Assembly (NCBI GenBank): GCA_021816775.1
Contig: JAKAXA010000001.1
Span: 17,589-81,588 of the forward strand
Origin: Pseudomonadota bacterium
GTDB lineage: Bacteria; Pseudomonadota; Gammaproteobacteria; Steroidobacterales; Steroidobacteraceae
DNA length: 64,000 nt
Reading direction: 5' to 3'
Part shown: positions 52,718-60,986 of the stretch, piece after piece
Layout of the letters: every line of letters begins with the position of its first letter
How positions within the stretch are numbered: position 1 is the first letter of the stretch
Position numbers and translations under genes: made by a program
The notes under the pieces: model-generated
Told to the model about the DNA's origin: nothing
Seen by the model: only the letters and a program-made list of their open reading frames with translations
Databases searched by the model: none

Positions 52718-53908
52718 TCAGCCCGGCCCCTTCAGCTTCGCCGCCACTCTCCGGTAGGCCTCACGGAACGGGATGCCCTCACTCACCACCAGGCGGTTGG
52801 CCTGCTCGGCGGCGTGGATGGCGGGGTCGAGCCGGATGCGCTCCGGGCGGAAGCGCATCCCATCGAGCGCAGCCGGCAGGATCCCGAGCGTCTCGTGCGC
52901 CACGTCGATGGCGCGGAACAGCGGAAATTTCAGCAGCTGCAGGTCGCGCTGATAGCCCGAGGGCAGCTTCGCGCACACCGCCAGCGCCTCGGCGAGGCAC
53001 GCCTGGGCGGTGGCCGAGCGGCCGCGGATCAGCTCGAAGACATCCGGATTGCGCTTCTGCGGCATGATGGACGAGCCGGTGGTGAAGGCCTCCGGCAGCT
53101 CGATGAAGGCGAACTCCTGCGTGTCGAAGAGGAGCACGTCGGCCGCCAGGCGCCCCAGATCCTGCATCAGCAGGCACAGGTGAAAGAGCAGCTCCGCTTC
53201 GGCCTTGCCGCGCGAGAGCTGCACCGCCGTCACCGGCTCGTGCACCTCGGCGAAGCCGAGTTTGGCGCGCGTCGCCTCCCGATCGAGCGGCAGTCCCGGC
53301 GTGCCATAGCCGGCCGCCGAGCCGAGCGGGCATTTGCCGAGGCGGCGGTGCGCGTGGCGCAGCGCCTCGGCGTCGTCGCGGATTTCGGCGGCGAAGCCGC
53401 CGGCCCACAGCGGCACGGAGCTCGGCATCGCCTGCTGCATGTGGGTGTAGCCGGGCAGCTCGGTCGCGCGCTCGCGCACCGCCAGCCCCTCGAGCGCCTC
53501 CGCGACCGACACGGCGCCGGCGGCGAGGCTCTCCACGGCGTCGCGCAGATACAGCCGCAGCGCCGTCAGCACCTGATCATTGCGCGAGCGCCCGAGGTGA
53601 ACCCGCCCGCCCGCCGGACCGATCCGCTCGGTCAGCCGCCGCTCGAGCGCGGTCTGCCCGTCCTCGTCCGAGAGCTCGATGTGCCACACCCCGCGGGCAT
53701 GCTCATCGCCGAGGGCGGTGAGGCCGTCGCGAATGGCCGCGAAATCCGCGGCCGCTAGCAGCCCCCCGGCGGCGAGCATCTCGGCGTGCGCGATCGATGC
53801 GCGCACGTCGTAGGCCACCAGACGCTCATCGAGCGCGAAGTCCTCCCCGGCCGTGTAGCGCAGCACGCGCTCATCGAGCGGCGCGCCCTTGTCCCACAGC
53901 CGGCTCAC
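52718..53908 (-). CDS. argH: Argininosuccinate lyase ArgH
   Basis: 396 residues, shorter than the 450-460 of E. coli ArgH because the N-terminal segment is trimmed. The superfamily signature GSSIMPQKRNPD is intact, along with HLGRSRNDQVLTALRLYLRD, ELPGYTHMQQAMPSS and LGSAAGYGTPGLPLDR. It splits argininosuccinate into arginine and fumarate, the last step. It begins 1 base from the argB stop and closes the eight-gene operon. Confidence 0.93.
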   Translation of the reverse strand: MSRLWDKGAPLDERVLRYTAGEDFALDERLVAYDVRASIAHAEMLAAGGLLAAADFAAIRDGLTALGDEHARGVWHIELSDEDGQTALERRLTERIGPAGGRVHLGRSRNDQVLTALRLYLRDAVESLAAGAVSVAEALEGLAVRERATELPGYTHMQQAMPSSVPLWAGGFAAEIRDDAEALRHAHRRLGKCPLGSAAGYGTPGLPLDREATRAKLGFAEVHEPVTAVQLSRGKAEAELLFHLCLLMQDLGRLAADVLLFDTQEFAFIELPEAFTTGSSIMPQKRNPDVFELIRGRSATAQACLAEALAVCAKLPSGYQRDLQLLKFPLFRAIDVAHETLGILPAALDGMRFRPERIRLDPAIHAAEQANRLVVSEGIPFREAYRRVAAKLKGPG

Positions 53909-53909
53909 G

Positions 53910-54848
53910 CTAGGCTCCGCCGCTGTGCTGTTCGGCGGGCGTCAGCGCGTCGATGTCCTCGACGATCAGCGTGCCGGTGCCCTCGTTGGTGAACACTTCA
54001 CCGAGAATGCCTTCCGGGGCCTGATACGACACGACGTGCACGCGGCGCACGCCGCCGCGGATGGCCGACTCGATCGCCTTGGCCTTCGGCAGCATGCCGT
54101 CGGCGATGGCGCCCTGCTCGCGCAGCCTCGAGAGGCCCTCGAGGTCCGTGTAGGAGATGAGCGAGCCCGGATCGGCGAGGTCGGCCAGAATGCCGGGCGC
54201 GCCGGTGCACAGGATCAGCTTCTCGGCGCCGAGCGCGGCGGCGAGCGCGGCGGCGACGGTATCGGCATTGACGTTGAGCAGCACGCCCTCATCGTCGGCC
54301 GACAGCGGGCTCACGACGGGCATCAGGCCGTTTTCGAGCAGCTTGCGCAGCACGGTCGGGTCGACCGAGTCGATGTCGCCGACGAACCCGTAATCGACAA
54401 GCTCGCCGCTCGCCTTGATCGTCACCGGCGGGCGCTTGTGCGCGCGGATCAGGCCGGCATCGACGCCGCTGACGCCGACCGCCTCGATGTTCAGCTCGCG
54501 GCAGATGCCGAGGATGGCGGTGTTGATGGTGCCGTTCAGCACCATCGCCGTGACGTCGATTGCCTCGCGGTCGGTCACCCGGCGTCCCTCCACCATCCGC
54601 GAGCTCACGCCGAGGGCACTGGCGAGCTCGGTCACCTGCGGGCCGCCGCCGTGCACGAACACGACGCGCACGCCGAAGTAGTGCAGGATCGCGATCTGCT
54701 CGACGAGCACGCGCGTCGCGGCGTCATCGGCGAACACGCCGCCGCCGGCCTTCACCACGAAAGTCTTGCCGCGATACATGCGGATGTACGGCGCGGCGCT
54801 CTTCAACGCGCGGATGGCTAGTGCCTGGTCGGCGGGTTGCATGATCAT
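53910..54848 (-). CDS. argB: N-acylglutamate kinase ArgB
   Basis: 312 residues of the amino-acid kinase fold. TFVVKAGGGVF (ATP lysine and glycines), VFVHGGGPQVTELA, NINADTVA-like LLNVNADTVAAALAAAL, and GMLPKAKAIESAIRGGV are family motifs. The protein lacks the C-terminal GNAT synthase domain seen in the fused ArgB/ArgA enzymes of Xanthomonas, so the operon has no synthase from this gene. If the upstream pathway uses succinyl groups, this kinase would phosphorylate N-succinylglutamate; specificity cannot be read here. A start at M3 is also possible. Confidence 0.9.
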   Translation of the reverse strand: MIMQPADQALAIRALKSAAPYIRMYRGKTFVVKAGGGVFADDAATRVLVEQIAILHYFGVRVVFVHGGGPQVTELASALGVSSRMVEGRRVTDREAIDVTAMVLNGTINTAILGICRELNIEAVGVSGVDAGLIRAHKRPPVTIKASGELVDYGFVGDIDSVDPTVLRKLLENGLMPVVSPLSADDEGVLLNVNADTVAAALAAALGAEKLILCTGAPGILADLADPGSLISYTDLEGLSRLREQGAIADGMLPKAKAIESAIRGGVRRVHVVSYQAPEGILGEVFTNEGTGTLIVEDIDALTPAEQHSGGA

Positions 54849-54894: not shown

Positions 54895-55896
54895 CTACAG
54901 CCCCTTCAGCAGGCGGTACAACACCGCCATCTGCACCGGCAGGCGATTGTACGCTTGGCGGCGCACGATGCTGCGCGGGCCGTCGAGGACCTCGTCGGCG
55001 ACGGCGACGTTGCGCCGCACCGGCAGACAGTGCATCAGACGGCACTCGCGCGCGGCCGGCTCGAACCATTCGTTGCGCACACACCAGCCGGTCAGCCCGG
55101 CCCGCCGGCGCGCCTCCTCGGCCGCATCGCCGTAGCAGGCGGTGGCGCCCCATTCCTTGGCGTAGACGATGTGCGCGCCCGCGATTGCCTCGCGCCGATC
55201 CTCGCTCTCGCGCACCGAGCCGCCCGAGAGCGCCGCAGCGCGGCGCGCTTTGTCCATGATGGACGGCGGCAGCGCGAACCCCTCGGGCCGCAGCACCACG
55301 ACCTCCATGCCGCGCAGCGCCGCCATGTGCAGCACAGCGGACGGCACGGCCAGCGGCAAGGGGCGCGGATGATAGGCCCAGGAGAGCACCAGGCGGCCGC
55401 GGCGCGGCACGCCGAAATCCTCCAGCGTCTTCCAGTCGGCAAGCGCCTGACAGGGGTGGTTGACCGCCGATTCGAGATTGATCAGCGGCTTGTCCACGAG
55501 CGCCGCGAGCGCATTGAACGTCGTTTCCGCCAGATCCGCCGCCAGATCCCGTCCGTCGGCGAACGCGCGGATGCCGAGGGCGTCGCAGTAGGAGGCGAGC
55601 ACCGGAATCCCCTCGCGCGCGTGCTCGGCCGCCGCGCCGTCCATCACGACGCCGGGGCGCGTCTCGAGCTGCCAGGTGCCCTGGCCCGGCGTGATGACGA
55701 ACGAGCTGCCGCCGAGGCGCGCCATGCCTGCCTGAAAGGACGCGAGCGTGCGCAGCGAGGGATTGAGGAACAGCAGCCCGAGAATCTTCCCGGCAAGCGC
55801 GCGCGGCTCGGGCTCGCGCTGCAGCCGCTCGGCGAGCTCGAGCAGGGCCGGCACCTCCTCGCGCGGCAGCTCCGCCAGGTCGACGAAGCGTTTCAT
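54895..55896 (-). CDS. argF': N-acyl-L-ornithine carbamoyltransferase (succinyl/acetyl type)
   Basis: 333 residues. The carbamoyl-phosphate motif is NPSLRT (residues 45-50) and HPCQ lies near 150, but the end HCLPVRRN, the GQGTWQLE loop and the HPRPLP proline-rich loop are those of N-acetyl- and N-succinyl-ornithine carbamoyltransferases and differ from ordinary ArgF. The segment WQLETRPGVVMDGAAAEH can be lined up with both known enzymes without gaps. At the residue that is Glu92 in Xanthomonas AOTCase and Pro90 in Bacteroides SOTCase this protein has Ala90. Overall it reads closer to the succinyl enzyme. Its ATG overlaps the argD stop. Confidence 0.85.
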   Translation of the reverse strand: MKRFVDLAELPREEVPALLELAERLQREPEPRALAGKILGLLFLNPSLRTLASFQAGMARLGGSSFVITPGQGTWQLETRPGVVMDGAAAEHAREGIPVLASYCDALGIRAFADGRDLAADLAETTFNALAALVDKPLINLESAVNHPCQALADWKTLEDFGVPRRGRLVLSWAYHPRPLPLAVPSAVLHMAALRGMEVVVLRPEGFALPPSIMDKARRAAALSGGSVRESEDRREAIAGAHIVYAKEWGATACYGDAAEEARRRAGLTGWCVRNEWFEPAARECRLMHCLPVRRNVAVADEVLDGPRSIVRRQAYNRLPVQMAVLYRLLKGL

Positions 55897-57065
55897 GCGC
55901 CGATGTCCGTCAGCGCCTGGCGCAGCAGGTCCACGTGCGCCTCCTGGAGGATGAACGGCGGCAGCAGCCGCACGATATCCGGGTCGCTCGCCGTGCCGGT
56001 GAGAATGCCGCGGCGCAGCAGCTCGGCCTGGATCTGCTTCGCGGGCCGGCGGGTGCGCAGTCCGAGCAGCAAGCCCTCGCCCTGCATCGCGCTCACCGGT
56101 CCGGTCAGACAGGTGCGCCGGATGTAGGCCGACACGCGCCGCACGTTCTCGAGCAGCCGCCCGGACTCGATGGCCTCGATCGTGGCGAGCAGGGCCGCGC
56201 ACGCCATCGGGCCGCCGCCATAGGTGGTGCCGAGAAGGCCGGTCTTCAGCGTGGCGGACACCCTGGCCGAGGTGAGCAGGGCGGCGACCGGAAACCCGTT
56301 GCCGAGCGCCTTGGCCGTGGTGAGCATGTCGGGCATGACTCCGTAGAGTCCGGCCGCGTACGGCGCGCCCACCCGGCCGAAGCCGCACTGCACCTCATCG
56401 AAGATCAGCAGCGCGCCGACCGCATCGCAGCGCTCGCGCAGCGCGGCGAGATACGGCGCACCGAGATTCACCGCACCGGCGAGCCCCTGCACGGGCTCGA
56501 CGATGACCGCGGCGGTCCGCTCGCTCACTTGGGCGGCCAGGGCATCGAGATCGCCGCGCGGCAGGAAGCTCACGTCGAAGGGCGTGCGCGGAAAGCCATA
56601 CCAGGCCTGCGAGCCCCAGGTGACCGCCGAGGCCGCCGCGGTGCGCCCGTGAAAGGCGCCCTCGAGCGCCGCCACGTGCGGTCGCCCCGTCATGCGCAGC
56701 GCGAGCCGCAGCGCGTTCTCGTTGGCCTCCGCGCCGCTGTTGACCAGGAACACGCTCGCGAAATCCAGCTGCGAGAACGCCAGCAGCCGCTGCGCGGCGT
56801 GCGTGCGCACGCCCATGGGCAGCGCGTTGGTCTGGAACTGACACGCGCGCGCCTGCGCGGCGAGCGCGTCGGTCCAGCCGGGATGGGCATAGCCGAGCGC
56901 TGCGACCGCATGCCCGCCATACAGATCGAGCACCCGCTCGCCTTGCGGGTCGATCAGCCACACCCCCTCGGCGCGGGCGACCTCGAACGGGTACTGGGCG
57001 TAGACGGGCGCCAGGGCGTCGCTCGGCGGCGTCGGCGTGGGTGACATGGTCGGGGTTGCGTTCAT
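55893..57065 (-). CDS. argD: N-acylornithine aminotransferase ArgD
   Basis: 390-residue class-III PLP aminotransferase. NSGAEANENALRLAL, AFHGRTAAA, FDEVQCGFGR and the PLP lysine in TTAKALGNGFP are intact, with GTTYGGGPMACAA near the end. It converts N-acylglutamate semialdehyde to N-acylornithine. ATGA overlap with argF' and 11 bases from argC place it inside the operon. A start at 57047 (MSPTPTPP) is possible since the first residues are low-complexity. Confidence 0.92.
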   Translation of the reverse strand: MNATPTMSPTPTPPSDALAPVYAQYPFEVARAEGVWLIDPQGERVLDLYGGHAVAALGYAHPGWTDALAAQARACQFQTNALPMGVRTHAAQRLLAFSQLDFASVFLVNSGAEANENALRLALRMTGRPHVAALEGAFHGRTAAASAVTWGSQAWYGFPRTPFDVSFLPRGDLDALAAQVSERTAAVIVEPVQGLAGAVNLGAPYLAALRERCDAVGALLIFDEVQCGFGRVGAPYAAGLYGVMPDMLTTAKALGNGFPVAALLTSARVSATLKTGLLGTTYGGGPMACAALLATIEAIESGRLLENVRRVSAYIRRTCLTGPVSAMQGEGLLLGLRTRRPAKQIQAELLRRGILTGTASDPDIVRLLPPFILQEAHVDLLRQALTDIGA

Positions 57066-57076
57066 GATCGCTCGCT

Positions 57077-58138
57077 TCAGGTCCAACCCGGGGCCGGCAG
57101 CGTAAGGCCATCGGTCTCGGCCAGGCCGAACATCCGATTCATCCACTGCACCGCGCCGCCGGCGGCGCCTTTGGTGAGGTTGTCGATGGCACACATCACC
57201 GCGATGGTGCGGCCGTCGCTCACCGCACCGAGGTGCGCGTAATTGCTCGCCGTCACGTCCTTGATGCGCGGTGCGCCGTCCAGCACCCGCACGAAGCGCG
57301 CGCGGGCGTAGAACTCTCGCAGCGCGCCGAGCACCTCGGCGGTCTCGAGCGGCCGCTCGAGCCGCGCCTGCACCGTCACGTGAATGCCGCGGGCGAACGG
57401 TCCGGAATGCGGGACAAACGCGAAATCGGCGGCGACGCCGCTCGCGGCGCGGGCGCAAGCGGCAATCTCCGGCGCATGCCGGTGCGCGAGCGGGCTGTAG
57501 GCGTAGAGGTCGCTGTGCCGCAGGGGATGGTGCGTGCCGGACGTCGGCTTGCCCCCCGAGCCGGTGCTGCCCGTCACGCCCGCGACGAACAGCTGCGGCG
57601 GCACCAGGCCGAGGGTGAGCAGCGGCACGCTCGCGAGCAGCGCCGCCGTGGCGAAGCAGCCCGGATGCGCCACGTGCGGCGTCGCGAGCTCGGCCAGATG
57701 CTCCGGCAGCGCACAGGTGAATTGTGCCAGGCGGCCCGGCGCGCCGTGCGCATGGCCGTAGACCCGCTCGTACTCGCCGGCCGAGCGGTAACGGAAATCG
57801 GCCGAGATGTCGACCACCCGTGGCGCGGTGCCCGCGGCTGCCGCGGCCTCGAGCAGCGAGTCGATCAGCTGCGCGGACACCCCATGCGGCGCCGCGCAGA
57901 ACACCGCGCAGCGCGGCACGCTCGAGAGCAGCGCGCGCACCTCGTCGTGCCCCTGGAAGCGCCAATCCCCATAGACCGCGGCTAGGTGCGGGAACGCCGC
58001 GGCGATCGGCTCGCCGGGCCGGCTTTCCGAGAGCACCGCGCGCAACGCAAAACGCGGATGCGCCGCCAGCAGGCGCAGCACCTCGCCGGCCACATAGCCG
58101 CTGCCGCCGAGTACAACCGCGGGAATGGGCTCGCTCAC
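57077..58138 (-). CDS. argC: N-acyl-gamma-glutamyl-phosphate reductase ArgC
   Basis: 353 residues. The NADP-binding start VVLGGSGYVAGEVLRLL, ISADFRYRS, the catalytic cysteine in AHPGCFATAALLA, GSTGSGGKPTSGTHH, and the C-terminal DNLTKGAAGGAVQWMN are all typical. It reduces acylglutamyl phosphate to the semialdehyde. The start is GTG 58138, overlapping the stop of the DUF1611-like gene as GTGA, so the two are translationally coupled. Confidence 0.94.
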   Translation of the reverse strand: MSEPIPAVVLGGSGYVAGEVLRLLAAHPRFALRAVLSESRPGEPIAAAFPHLAAVYGDWRFQGHDEVRALLSSVPRCAVFCAAPHGVSAQLIDSLLEAAAAAGTAPRVVDISADFRYRSAGEYERVYGHAHGAPGRLAQFTCALPEHLAELATPHVAHPGCFATAALLASVPLLTLGLVPPQLFVAGVTGSTGSGGKPTSGTHHPLRHSDLYAYSPLAHRHAPEIAACARAASGVAADFAFVPHSGPFARGIHVTVQARLERPLETAEVLGALREFYARARFVRVLDGAPRIKDVTASNYAHLGAVSDGRTIAVMCAIDNLTKGAAGGAVQWMNRMFGLAETDGLTLPAPGWT

Positions 58139-59211
58139 GTGCGCGCCCCGCCCGAGAGGCCCACGGCCTGCATCACGTAATCGCCGAGCGAGGCGCCGTC
58201 GCTGATGGCGTTGAATGCCGGGACTTTGAGCTGCTCGGTGATCAGATCGATGCCCACCCGATTGTCGGTGGCGGGCCCGGTGACCACGCACGGCTCGATG
58301 CCGAAGCGCTCGCGCAAGAGCTTCACGCCGCCCCAGGCGGCCACCGGGTCGTTGGCCGAGAGCGCGACGCCGGTCAGCACGGCGCGGATGTCGGCGCACT
58401 CGAGAATGGCATCGACGCCGTAGGTTCCGAGTATGCCGTCGCCCAGCTCGAACACGATCACATCCGGCTTGCCTGCGCAGAGCTCGGTAAGCATGGTGCG
58501 CGTCAGGGCCGGGCCGTTGCGGCGCGTGGTCGTTACCACGCCGAAATCGGTGAAGATCGCCGAGCGGCGCGCACCGGCATCCTCCATCGCCATGATGTCG
58601 CGACGCAGCGAGACGCCCGTGGCCTTGAAGGCATCGATCGTGAGGCCGCGGTGGCGCATGCGGCTGATCATGGCGCAGGCGGCGGCGGTCTTGCCGGCCT
58701 CCATGCACGTGCCGGCGAGGGCCACCACCGGGACCTGGCGGGTCTCGAGCGCGGCGGCCTGATCGAGCGGGCGCAGCCCGACGCGTGCCGGCACGCCGAT
58801 GCGCTCGCCGAGGTACGGAAAGCGCAGCACCACCCCGAGCACGCGGCAGTCGAACGGCTGGCCCTTGTCGGGGTTGATCGAGTCGCACGCCCCGAGCACC
58901 CCGCCGATGTTGAGCATCTGGATCGTATCGCCGGGCCTGACCGTCTCGGGGATGTGGCCCGAGTAGCCGAACAGCGCCTTGCGGTGACCGAGCGCGCCGA
59001 CCACGATGTCGCCCTTGCGCACCTTGGCCATGCGGCCGCTGGTGAGCTCCAGGGTGTTGTAGGTCGACTTGTTGGTCAGCACCTCGACGACGATCACCAC
59101 GCCTTCCTCGGCGGGAATGTCGGGGCAGATGCGCACCTCGTGCGACAGGCCGCAGGCCTGCGCCACGGAGGCGATCTTGTCCACGACCACGCTGCGCATG
59201 CCGTTGGTCAT
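58135..59211 (-). CDS. DUF1611/DgcN-like P-loop protein inside the arginine operon
   Basis: 358 residues. The N-terminal 140 or so residues form a beta-rich domain (VEVLTNKSTYNTLEL, YSGHIPETVRPGDTIQML). The C-terminal part carries a P-loop, AGTCMEAGKTAAAC (residues 166-179), and a Walker-B-like VIVFELGDGI (251-260), similar to the deviant P-loops of dethiobiotin-synthetase relatives. DUF1611 members have been linked, as I recall, to N-acetylation of D-glutamate (DgcN). Start and stop overlap argG and argC (ATGA, GTGA). No N-acylglutamate synthase is otherwise present in the operon, so this protein is the best candidate for that step; it is inference only. Confidence 0.7.
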   Translation of the reverse strand: MTNGMRSVVVDKIASVAQACGLSHEVRICPDIPAEEGVVIVVEVLTNKSTYNTLELTSGRMAKVRKGDIVVGALGHRKALFGYSGHIPETVRPGDTIQMLNIGGVLGACDSINPDKGQPFDCRVLGVVLRFPYLGERIGVPARVGLRPLDQAAALETRQVPVVALAGTCMEAGKTAAACAMISRMRHRGLTIDAFKATGVSLRRDIMAMEDAGARRSAIFTDFGVVTTTRRNGPALTRTMLTELCAGKPDVIVFELGDGILGTYGVDAILECADIRAVLTGVALSANDPVAAWGGVKLLRERFGIEPCVVTGPATDNRVGIDLITEQLKVPAFNAISDGASLGDYVMQAVGLSGGART

Positions 59212-60464
59212 GTCCGCTCTCCCGCGCCGTGGGGCTGCCCGTCGGAAGCGAGCCCGGCGCGGCGGTGAAATACGCCGCTCAGGGCGACGATCTTGGAGAA
59301 GCCGAGTGCATCCTGCGGCGTCCACTCGCCGGCCGCCTCGCCGTACACGCCCTTGGAGGCGCTCATCAGCGAGTAGGGCGACTCGACGCCCTCGATGAAG
59401 AGGTTGCCGGGGCGCAGCGCGATGCGCACCGTGCCGGTCACGCGCGCCTGCGAGGACACGAGCAGCGCCTCGATGTCGCGGCACACCGGATCGAGCAGCT
59501 GGCCCTCGTGCACCAGGTCGCCGTAGGGCTGGGCCACCAGCTCCTTGATGCGCTGCTGCCGGCCCGTGAGCACGAGCTTCTCGAGCTCACGGTGGGCGAT
59601 CAGCAGCACCTCGGCGGCGGGCGCCTCGAAGGCGACCCGGCCTTTGGTGCCGATGATGGTATCCCCGAGATGAATGCCCCGGCCGATGCCGAACGGCGCC
59701 GCCAGCGACTCCAGCGCCTCGATCAGCGCCACCGGCGGCAGCGGTCGGCCGTCGAGGCCGACCGGTCGCCCGCGCTCGAACGCGAGCACGTGGGTCTCGC
59801 ACGCGCGGGGCCGGTTGAAGGCCTCGCGCGTGAGCACCCACGCCTCATCGGGAATGGTGCCGGAGGAGTTCAGCGTCTCCTTGCCGCCGATGGTCACGCC
59901 CCATAGGCCGCGGTTGACCGAGTAGGCCGCGCCGAAGGGCGGCACGGGCAGGCCGCGGCTCTCGAGGAAGGCCAACTCCTCGGTCCGCTTGAACGCCCGG
60001 TCGCGCACCGGGGCGAGCACTTCCAGATCCGGCGCCAGGGTGCGCATGGCGACCTCGAAGCGCACCTGGTCGTTGCCCGCGGCGGTGCAGCCGTGCGCGA
60101 TCATGTGGGTGCCGAGCTTGCGCGCCATGTGCGCGATGGTCTGCGCCTGCATGACACGCTCGGCCCCCACGCACAGCGGGTACAGCTGGCCGCGCTTGAC
60201 GTTGCCCATGATCAGAAAGCGCAGCACCTGCTCGAAATACTCCGCGCGCGCATCGACCTGGTGATGCGCCACGGCGCCGAGGGCGTGCGCGCGCTCCTTG
60301 AGCGTGCGGGCCGCCTCGGCATCGATGCCGCCGGTATCGACGGTGACGGTGATCACCGGACGGTGGTAGGTCTCCTTCAGCCACGGCACCAGAAACGAGG
60401 TGTCGAGACCGCCGGAATAGGCCAGAACGATGGGCTCGCCGCCCGCGGTGGAGGCTGTGGACAT
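59208..60464 (-). CDS. argG: Argininosuccinate synthase ArgG
   Basis: 418 residues. The PP-loop ATPase motif is VLAYSGGLDTSFLV; AHGCTAAGNDQVRFE and YSVNRGLWGVTIGGKETL follow. It condenses citrulline with aspartate using ATP. From memory these segments look more like ArgG of Bacteroidota than like E. coli ArgG. Four bases separate it from argR, and its stop overlaps the next gene. Confidence 0.93.
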   Translation of the reverse strand: MSTASTAGGEPIVLAYSGGLDTSFLVPWLKETYHRPVITVTVDTGGIDAEAARTLKERAHALGAVAHHQVDARAEYFEQVLRFLIMGNVKRGQLYPLCVGAERVMQAQTIAHMARKLGTHMIAHGCTAAGNDQVRFEVAMRTLAPDLEVLAPVRDRAFKRTEELAFLESRGLPVPPFGAAYSVNRGLWGVTIGGKETLNSSGTIPDEAWVLTREAFNRPRACETHVLAFERGRPVGLDGRPLPPVALIEALESLAAPFGIGRGIHLGDTIIGTKGRVAFEAPAAEVLLIAHRELEKLVLTGRQQRIKELVAQPYGDLVHEGQLLDPVCRDIEALLVSSQARVTGTVRIALRPGNLFIEGVESPYSLMSASKGVYGEAAGEWTPQDALGFSKIVALSGVFHRRAGLASDGQPHGAGERT

Positions 60465-60467
60465 GGC

Positions 60468-60914
60468 TCAGATCCCAAAGAGTGCCTGCAGCCGCGCGAT
60501 CAGTTGATCCTGCGCATGCCGCGAGGCGGTGGCAATAAAAATGGTGTCATCGCCCGAGAGGGTGCCCGACACTTCCGGCCACTCGGCCCGGTCGATCGCG
60601 ACTGCGACGCTCTGCGCCGCGCCGATCGTGGTCCTGAGGACCGTGAGCGAGGGCCCGGCGCGCCTCATCCCGCGCACGAACTGCGCGAGCATCGCGAAAT
60701 CACCCTGGGTGCGCGTCACCTCGTCCGGCGGCAGGACGTAGCGGCCGCTCGCCTTGAGCACCCCCAGATCGCGCAGGTCGCGGCTGATCGAGGACTGCGT
60801 GACGTCGTAGCCTTCCACGCGCAGCAGGCGCACCAGGTCCTCCTGGCGATGCACCACGCCGCTGCGCAGGATGCGCACCACCGCCTGGCGGCGCTCGAGT
60901 TGCTCGGCGTCCAT
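60468..60914 (-). CDS. argR: Arginine repressor ArgR
   Basis: 148 residues: a winged-helix N-domain (LERRQAVVRILRSG, TQSSISRDLRDLGVLKA) and a C-terminal oligomerisation/arginine-binding domain (TLSGDDTIFIATASRHAQDQL). The hexameric repressor binds ARG boxes when arginine is plentiful. It is the first gene of the operon, and tandem ARG boxes overlap its promoter, so it represses itself and the whole pathway. Confidence 0.95.
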   Translation of the reverse strand: MDAEQLERRQAVVRILRSGVVHRQEDLVRLLRVEGYDVTQSSISRDLRDLGVLKASGRYVLPPDEVTRTQGDFAMLAQFVRGMRRAGPSLTVLRTTIGAAQSVAVAIDRAEWPEVSGTLSGDDTIFIATASRHAQDQLIARLQALFGI

Positions 60915-60939
60915 GGCGCAGCTCAGCGGTGACCGGGCG

Positions 60940-60978
60940 TGTGCATAAACATGCGCGAATTGTGCATATTAATTCGCG
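60940..60978. promoter_or_regulatory. Two tandem ARG boxes (ArgR operator)
   Basis: TGTGCATAAACATGCGCG (60940-60957) and TGTGCATATTAATTCGCG (60961-60978) are 18-bp imperfect palindromes separated by exactly 3 bp, the arrangement required by hexameric ArgR. They match the AT-centred shape of the ARG box though the flanks are GC-richer than in E. coli. Confidence 0.82.
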
Positions 60979-60986
60979 CAAGTCAA
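60959..60986 (-). promoter_or_regulatory. Promoter of the arg operon
   Basis: On the minus strand TTGACT (60986-60981) and CACAAT (60964-60959) are 16 bases apart. The spacer and -10 lie inside the ARG boxes, so bound ArgR would exclude RNA polymerase. The -35 sits immediately after the tamB stop. Confidence 0.6.

Follow-up and report, generated by a model that had tools for sequence, protein, structure and literature searches.

In a 64,000-nucleotide stretch of contig JAKAXA010000001.1 from a Steroidobacteraceae bacterium (assembly GCA_021816775.1; the whole stretch is hereafter called the window), open reading frames together with Pfam and NCBIfam scans define an eight-gene arginine operon on the minus strand, argR-argG-X-argC-argD-argF'-argB-argH, in which X (59211-58135, minus strand) encodes a P-loop protein of 358 amino acids. 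Comparison of sequences across genomes indicates that X is probably the enzyme of the first step; its likeliest role is that of N-succinylglutamate synthase in a succinylated arginine pathway like that of Bacteroides. X is a candidate for this role because the operon around it is conserved, known synthases were not found, X and the fused NAT domain (PF04768) exclude one another, and the operon's N-acylornithine transcarbamylase, ArgF', has succinyl-type residues at two of three specificity sites. In such a pathway, X would acylate L-glutamate at its alpha-amino group, with succinyl as the likeliest substituent; N-succinyl intermediates would then be the substrates of ArgB, ArgC and ArgD, ArgF' would carbamoylate N-succinylornithine, a desuccinylase, perhaps DapE, would free citrulline, and ArgG and ArgH would complete arginine.

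X and known N-acylglutamate synthases

An original prediction, made from the window's sequence, had placed a P-loop protein between argG and argC with overlaps at both junctions, and had listed the remaining operon genes, with an ArgB that lacks a GNAT domain. Both descriptions hold: argG ends and X begins in a shared ATGA, X ends and argC begins in a shared GTGA, and the gene content was confirmed by the Pfam and NCBIfam scans. The prediction had further proposed that X forms N-acylglutamate in place of ArgA and ArgJ, neither of which the operon encodes. We extended this absence to the whole genome, a 3.94-Mb draft that is 97% complete. ArgJ (PF01960) is absent there, by a profile that was positive in 10 of 14 control genomes, and no protein exceeded the cut-off for ArgA (TIGR01890), the matches below it being the kinase part of ArgB and one short GNAT protein. 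The Xanthomonas-type NAT domain also gave no match in this genome; the 14 control genomes were silent for it, yet 12 genomes of the order were positive. X itself matches neither ArgJ nor the kinase-like and GNAT domains of classical ArgA or N-acetylglutamate synthase (NAGS) in Pfam and NCBIfam.

The order was surveyed in 119 genomes, each at least 90% complete, by profile and sequence searches for six targets. An X orthologue (E below 1e-100) was found in 100 of them, and any match in 103, the additional three (G027, G234 and G301) having a remote paralogue alone. The NAT domain, fused to ArgB, occurs in 12 genomes, never together with X (0/119; Fisher p 5e-12, uncorrected for kinship), and one genome of family f7, G310, has a NAT-type operon, which amounts to one X/NAT exchange inside that family. 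ArgJ and ArgA over its cut-off were each found in none of the 119, and the survey thus lends support to X as the candidate enzyme. The argF' family is over its cut-off in 112 genomes, and five of the seven genomes that have neither X nor NAT lack argF' as well: any argF' match in G033, G036, G228, G232 and G301 is no better than E 1e-12, and the ArgB-like kinase part of TIGR01890 has no match there. In the other two, a contig end cuts the operon: the G306 contig holds the remaining X-type operon genes and begins 61 bases ahead of the argC match, and the G242 contig, 3.1 kb long, carries argG and a NAT-type argF'.

Acyl specificity of ArgF'

A review (PMC4581275) assigns Glu92, Asn185 and Lys302 to transcarbamylases of the acetyl type, and Ala/Ser/Pro/Val/Gln, Pro and Val/Ile/Glu to those of the succinyl type. 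PMC7311316 gives the GapMind rule that Ser, Pro, Ala or Val at position 90 of BT3717 makes the enzyme prefer the succinyl substrate; we take this position to be the first of the three specificity sites, equivalent to Glu92. The window's ArgF' (54895..55896, minus strand) has Ala, Pro and Ala at Xanthomonas positions 92, 185 and 302, so that two of three sites are succinyl-type and the third is neither Lys nor one of the listed residues.

For comparison, ArgF' sequences were taken from 66 of 80 named loci, the named loci being the best 80 of 450 relatives of X (at least 290 aligned residues; L200 was left out as too short), and from the genome searches, whose X-type rows contain repeats; G306 and G242 were assigned to the X type and the NAT type, respectively, by their operons. 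None of the 88 X-type rows has Glu92 (86 have Ala, one Pro and one Val), all 88 have Pro at site 185, and site 302 is occupied by Ala (73 rows), Val (13) or Glu (two). In contrast, all 15 NAT-type rows (12 genomes, three of them represented twice) have Glu92 and Asn185, with Lys302 in 14 and Gln in one. Given this split, acyl group and synthase type appear to switch in concert, and the N-acylglutamate of the original prediction can be narrowed, with the ArgF' residues as a guide, to a product that is probably N-succinylglutamate.

These residues bear directly on the unlikely alternative that X is a synthase using acetyl, that is, a P-loop N-acetylglutamate synthase. NCBIfam names the window's argF' product N-acetylornithine carbamoyltransferase, over its cut-off. 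The DUF1611 family, to which X is remotely similar, is also said to offer an N-acetyltransferase as precedent: DgcN, a D-glutamate N-acetyltransferase, is reportedly a DUF1611 protein. If that is right, DgcN would belong to the same remote family as X, with a role in D-glutamate catabolism rather than arginine synthesis. DgcN is not among the other aligned DUF1611-like proteins, to which X is 24-31% identical. The activity exists as EC 2.3.1.312 in an excerpt of PMC11747546 that names no protein family with it, and a passage of PMC12363236 assigns dgcN to a route of D-glutamate racemisation. Against acetyl as the substituent stand the succinyl-type residues at sites 92 and 185 in every X-type row and the acetyl-type residues in every NAT-type row.

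GNAT proteins encoded outside the operon

It is rather unlikely that a GNAT or other synthase is encoded elsewhere and that X is instead a regulator, an ArgC chaperone or a channelling partner. Synthases can hide outside arg operons, as PMC3827942 relates for the C-NAGS of Corynebacterium, and the genome of the window encodes 14 PF00583 GNAT proteins. NCBIfam scans of nine of these identified one RimI and one ArsN2 over cut-off and nothing over cut-off for seven; two of the remaining five are long and, as judged by eye, resemble MarR in their N-terminal region. The ArsN2-type protein (G000:C60; 157.7 bits, cut-off 125) has a weaker similarity to ArgA and is present in eight of nine genomes of the genus. 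Its gene (L217, 6424-6864) overlaps the end of a gene that is MutS-like by eye, with no arg genes adjoining.

The original prediction would have failed had a separate NAGS or ArgJ turned up elsewhere in the genome; none did, with the one reservation of this ArgA-like protein. Across the order it is found in 69 of 119 genomes at E 0.001, and in 31, the window's own included, at the threshold used to count it (E below 1e-20); within the genus it carries an internal stop in two of the eight genomes and has no match in G002. As a general synthase it was rejected on account of this occurrence in 31 of 119 genomes and the two internal stops, and within the window's genus it stays a weak rival. That X is absent from all 12 NAT-positive genomes also argues against a synthase elsewhere with X in an accessory role.

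Conservation of X between argG and argC

X is 78-85% identical in several metagenome-assembled genomes (MAGs) named 'Steroidobacteraceae bacterium'. Among the 80 named loci, argG lies directly upstream of X in 78 and argC directly downstream in 78; where this order fails, a contig edge intervenes in three cases (upstream once, downstream twice), and the remaining case is an argR-X-argC-argB cluster. The placement of X between argG and argC is not due to chance. All eight operon genes are present in 62 of 89 loci (the 80 named and nine from genome searches), and in 59 of these 62 no intergenic gap exceeds 150 bases. A gene that is MurJ-like by eye lies between argB and argH in L128 and L130, and in L039, L110 and L120, which have argR and argH, argD was undetected in the operon.

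Beyond the order, strong matches to X are few. A draw of 184 genomes from the class gave a match in 13, with E below 1e-90 in five: the window's own genome, one of the same family, one of the same order, and two outside the order, G075 and G140. In the latter two, X is 45% and 42% identical, respectively, and the operon is rearranged to argD-argF'-argB-argH-argG-X-argC with argR inverted. A draw of 397 genomes from the phylum, with up to five candidates per genome scored, gave seven with a match and two with E below 1e-100, namely the window's own genome and G530, which belongs to another class. G530 (L248, 7089-10739) and L119 (9460-13129) have argR-X-argC-argB clusters without argG, which tie X to the early steps of arginine synthesis; the L119 contig breaks off at argB, leaving downstream genes out of view. 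X of G530 was probably acquired by transfer, since the tree places it among the close relatives of the window's X (support 100/99). A relative of X with 79% identity and one stop in the matched stretch was also seen in a MAG titled Klebsiella pneumoniae (L092), a title that looks wrong.

Motif, fold and family of X

The Walker A motif of X, G167-T-C-M-E-A-G-K-T175, is encoded at 58687..58713 (minus strand). The original label of a DUF1611-like P-loop protein applies with the limit that the relation to DUF1611 is only remote: the match to PF07755 scores 16.1 bits (E 0.0077) against a gathering score of 25 bits. In alignment A3, which has 52 rows (27 of the operon type and 25 paralogues; L092, for its stop codon, L119 and L233 were excluded), 28 of the 52 relatives match DUF1611 at E 0.01 or better.

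Structure models of X reached a mean predicted local distance difference test (pLDDT) score of 74 with a 14-row alignment and of 94 with the 52-row alignment. They consist of a strand-rich N-terminal part followed by a P-loop domain of the dethiobiotin synthetase/MobB kind at the C terminus. Dethiobiotin synthetases, along with further P-loop proteins, are among the best fold and sequence matches of this domain; identity to dethiobiotin synthetase and MobB is about 15%, in the P-loop domain only, and carries no link to arginine. The solved DUF1611 structure 2obn was matched by the first, poorer model (E 1.4e-4, template modelling (TM) score 0.40) and is not among the 50 fold matches listed for the better one. 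Sequence searches of the PDB gave one match at E 0.69 with X alone, none with alignment A1, and weak matches, mainly to P-loop fragments, with alignment A3 (best E 0.013); a search of a viral fold library gave nothing useful.

The P-loop would hold either the phosphates of an acyl-CoA donor or an ATP that activates succinate, the latter being suggested because the Walker motif is kept and the domain resembles dethiobiotin synthetase. Residues invariant in the 27 operon-type rows and shared by 95% or more of the 25 paralogues include G167, M170, G173, K174 and T175 of the P-loop, as well as K196, G199, D205, G213, A214, F220, D222, G224, T228, E255 and others. Also invariant in the operon type are, among others, K12, K48, Y51, N52, D258, D316 and N317, none of which is the commonest residue in the paralogues; these may be candidate residues for binding glutamate and the acyl group.

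Removal of the acyl group

The original prediction also raised the matter of ArgE. The genome of the window encodes five M20 proteins, three of which were scanned against NCBIfam (a DapE and an amidohydrolase, both over cut-off, and a protein resembling dipeptidases, below it) and two of which are amidohydrolases by eye. None of the three scanned is over the ArgE cut-off, and the DapE is the sole M20 protein shown to be of the ArgE/DapE type. With the searches for ArgJ, NAT and ArgA negative and the M20 proteins otherwise classified, no gene was recognised for either attachment or removal of the acyl group. Gaps of at most 150 bases in 59 of the 62 complete loci imply that those operons conceal no gene for a deacylase.

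It is improbable that X covers both functions by recycling succinyl from N-succinylcitrulline or N-succinylornithine to glutamate, like the bifunctional ArgJ and with an unrelated P-loop fold. The idea arises because, relative to the NAT-type operon, the X-type operon is short of both acyl-handling parts, the NAT domain as well as ArgE', and gains a single gene. The reading of X as the missing deacylase or its partner is very improbable: the X-type operon indeed lacks the ArgE' gene that adjoins argB in the two NAT-type operons examined (L218 and L220), but X is a P-loop protein without a match to any hydrolase family in the Pfam and NCBIfam scans, two clusters pair it with argC and argB of the early steps, and 18 of 26 paralogues have an M20 hydrolase as neighbour, which suggests that they are not hydrolases themselves.

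Weighing the assignment

Several observations weigh against X as an N-succinylglutamate synthase. The genomes of the order share ancestry, so that 100 versus 12 genomes represent a handful of independent events, and X, frequent within the order, is seldom seen elsewhere. Kinship of X to DUF1611 is weak by sequence, below the Pfam cut-off, and its sequence matches to solved structures are confined to the P-loop part. We noticed no CoA-binding motif in X, and its P-loop would speak for a nucleotide, which simple acyl-CoA transfer does not need. At site 302, 73 of 88 X-type ArgF' rows, the window's included, have Ala, and the succinyl list in PMC4581275 is Val, Ile and Glu. Finally, a GNAT synthase may be hidden in the genome: the search covered PF00583 and PF04768, with nine of the 14 PF00583 proteins classified, the draft is 97% complete, and the ArsN2-type protein occurs in eight of the nine genomes of the genus.

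Paralogues of X

In the tree, the operon type forms one side of a branch with support of 97/89, apart from the paralogues and next to a branch associated with M20 genes; the tree program warned that long branches meet between two paralogue groups. In this second DUF1611-like branch (L222-L231, L233, L234, L236, L239 and L033-L036) there is a conserved trio of a flavin-reductase-like gene, an M20 hydrolase gene and a DUF1611-like gene. The M20 hydrolase adjoins the DUF1611-like gene in 18 of 26 paralogue matches and also in G514 of another class, and the role of this branch is perhaps N-acyl amino acid turnover. A third group (L037, L235, L240, L241, L237, L250 and the plasmid records H2, H5 and H6) directly precedes an ABC transporter-like gene; in the plasmid records, the DUF1611-like gene follows an alpha/beta hydrolase gene or a hypothetical gene. 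Identification of the paralogues as DgcN was rejected, as no DgcA neighbour was recognised and M20 and flavin-reductase-like genes, or ABC transporter genes, adjoin them instead. When five paralogues were scanned with NCBIfam, together with two divergent relatives of the operon type, no family reached its cut-off.

Other genes of the operon

All other operon genes also lie on the minus strand. The first, argR (60468..60914), encodes the arginine repressor and is over the Pfam cut-off and below that of NCBIfam. Pfam matches, and NCBIfam matches over cut-off, identify argG (argininosuccinate synthase, 59208..60464), argC (N-acyl-gamma-glutamyl-phosphate reductase, 57077..58138) and argH (argininosuccinate lyase, 52718..53908), while argD (acylornithine aminotransferase, 55893..57065) is over the Pfam cut-off and below the curated cut-offs of NCBIfam. 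ArgB (53910..54848), an N-acylglutamate kinase of 312 amino acids recognised by Pfam and NCBIfam, is a single domain without a GNAT part; in NCBIfam it is over the argB cut-off and also matches LysW kinase families, below their cut-offs. Between a TamB-like gene and argR, the repeats ATATGCACA / TTATGCACA and GCGCGAATT / AATTCGCGC were seen by eye at 60935-60985 and are perhaps ArgR boxes.

Relation to known arginine pathways

The operon resembles two known systems. In the Xanthomonas NAGS-K system (an ArgB-NAT fusion with N-acetylornithine transcarbamylase (AOTCase) and ArgE'), an operon type found in 12 of the 119 order genomes, the pathway logic is alike and an N-acylornithine transcarbamylase is used; there, however, NAT is attached to ArgB and ArgF' is of the acetyl type, whereas here ArgB is single, X is a P-loop protein and ArgF' has succinyl-type residues. 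In the succinylated pathway of Bacteroides (N-succinylornithine transcarbamylase (SOTCase) BT3717, synthase BT3761 and M20 desuccinylase BT3549), the likeness lies in the succinyl-type residues (two of three sites in the window's ArgF') and in the lack of any ArgA or ArgJ found. BT3761 is presumably a GNAT protein, unlike X, and the window's operon has no M20 gene. PMC7311316 describes BT3761 as a synthase candidate related to the N-acetylglutamate synthase Cabys_1732. Succinylglutamate synthase is treated for Bacteroidetes in the same paper and has a table row in PMC9026213, and DUF1611 is mentioned in a table row of a paper on Dickeya. No prior claim for X was found in the literature searched, which omits most subscription papers.

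Arginine synthesis would look incomplete at this point to any annotation pipeline restricted to the named synthases. If the assignment of X is true, the first step would be filled in 100 of the 119 order genomes examined, by an N-acylglutamate synthase class outside GNAT and ArgJ, and the coupling of X/NAT exchange to succinyl- or acetyl-type residues in ArgF' makes the proposal directly testable. One branch of a P-loop family would thereby gain a function, and succinylated arginine synthesis would be predicted outside Bacteroidetes.
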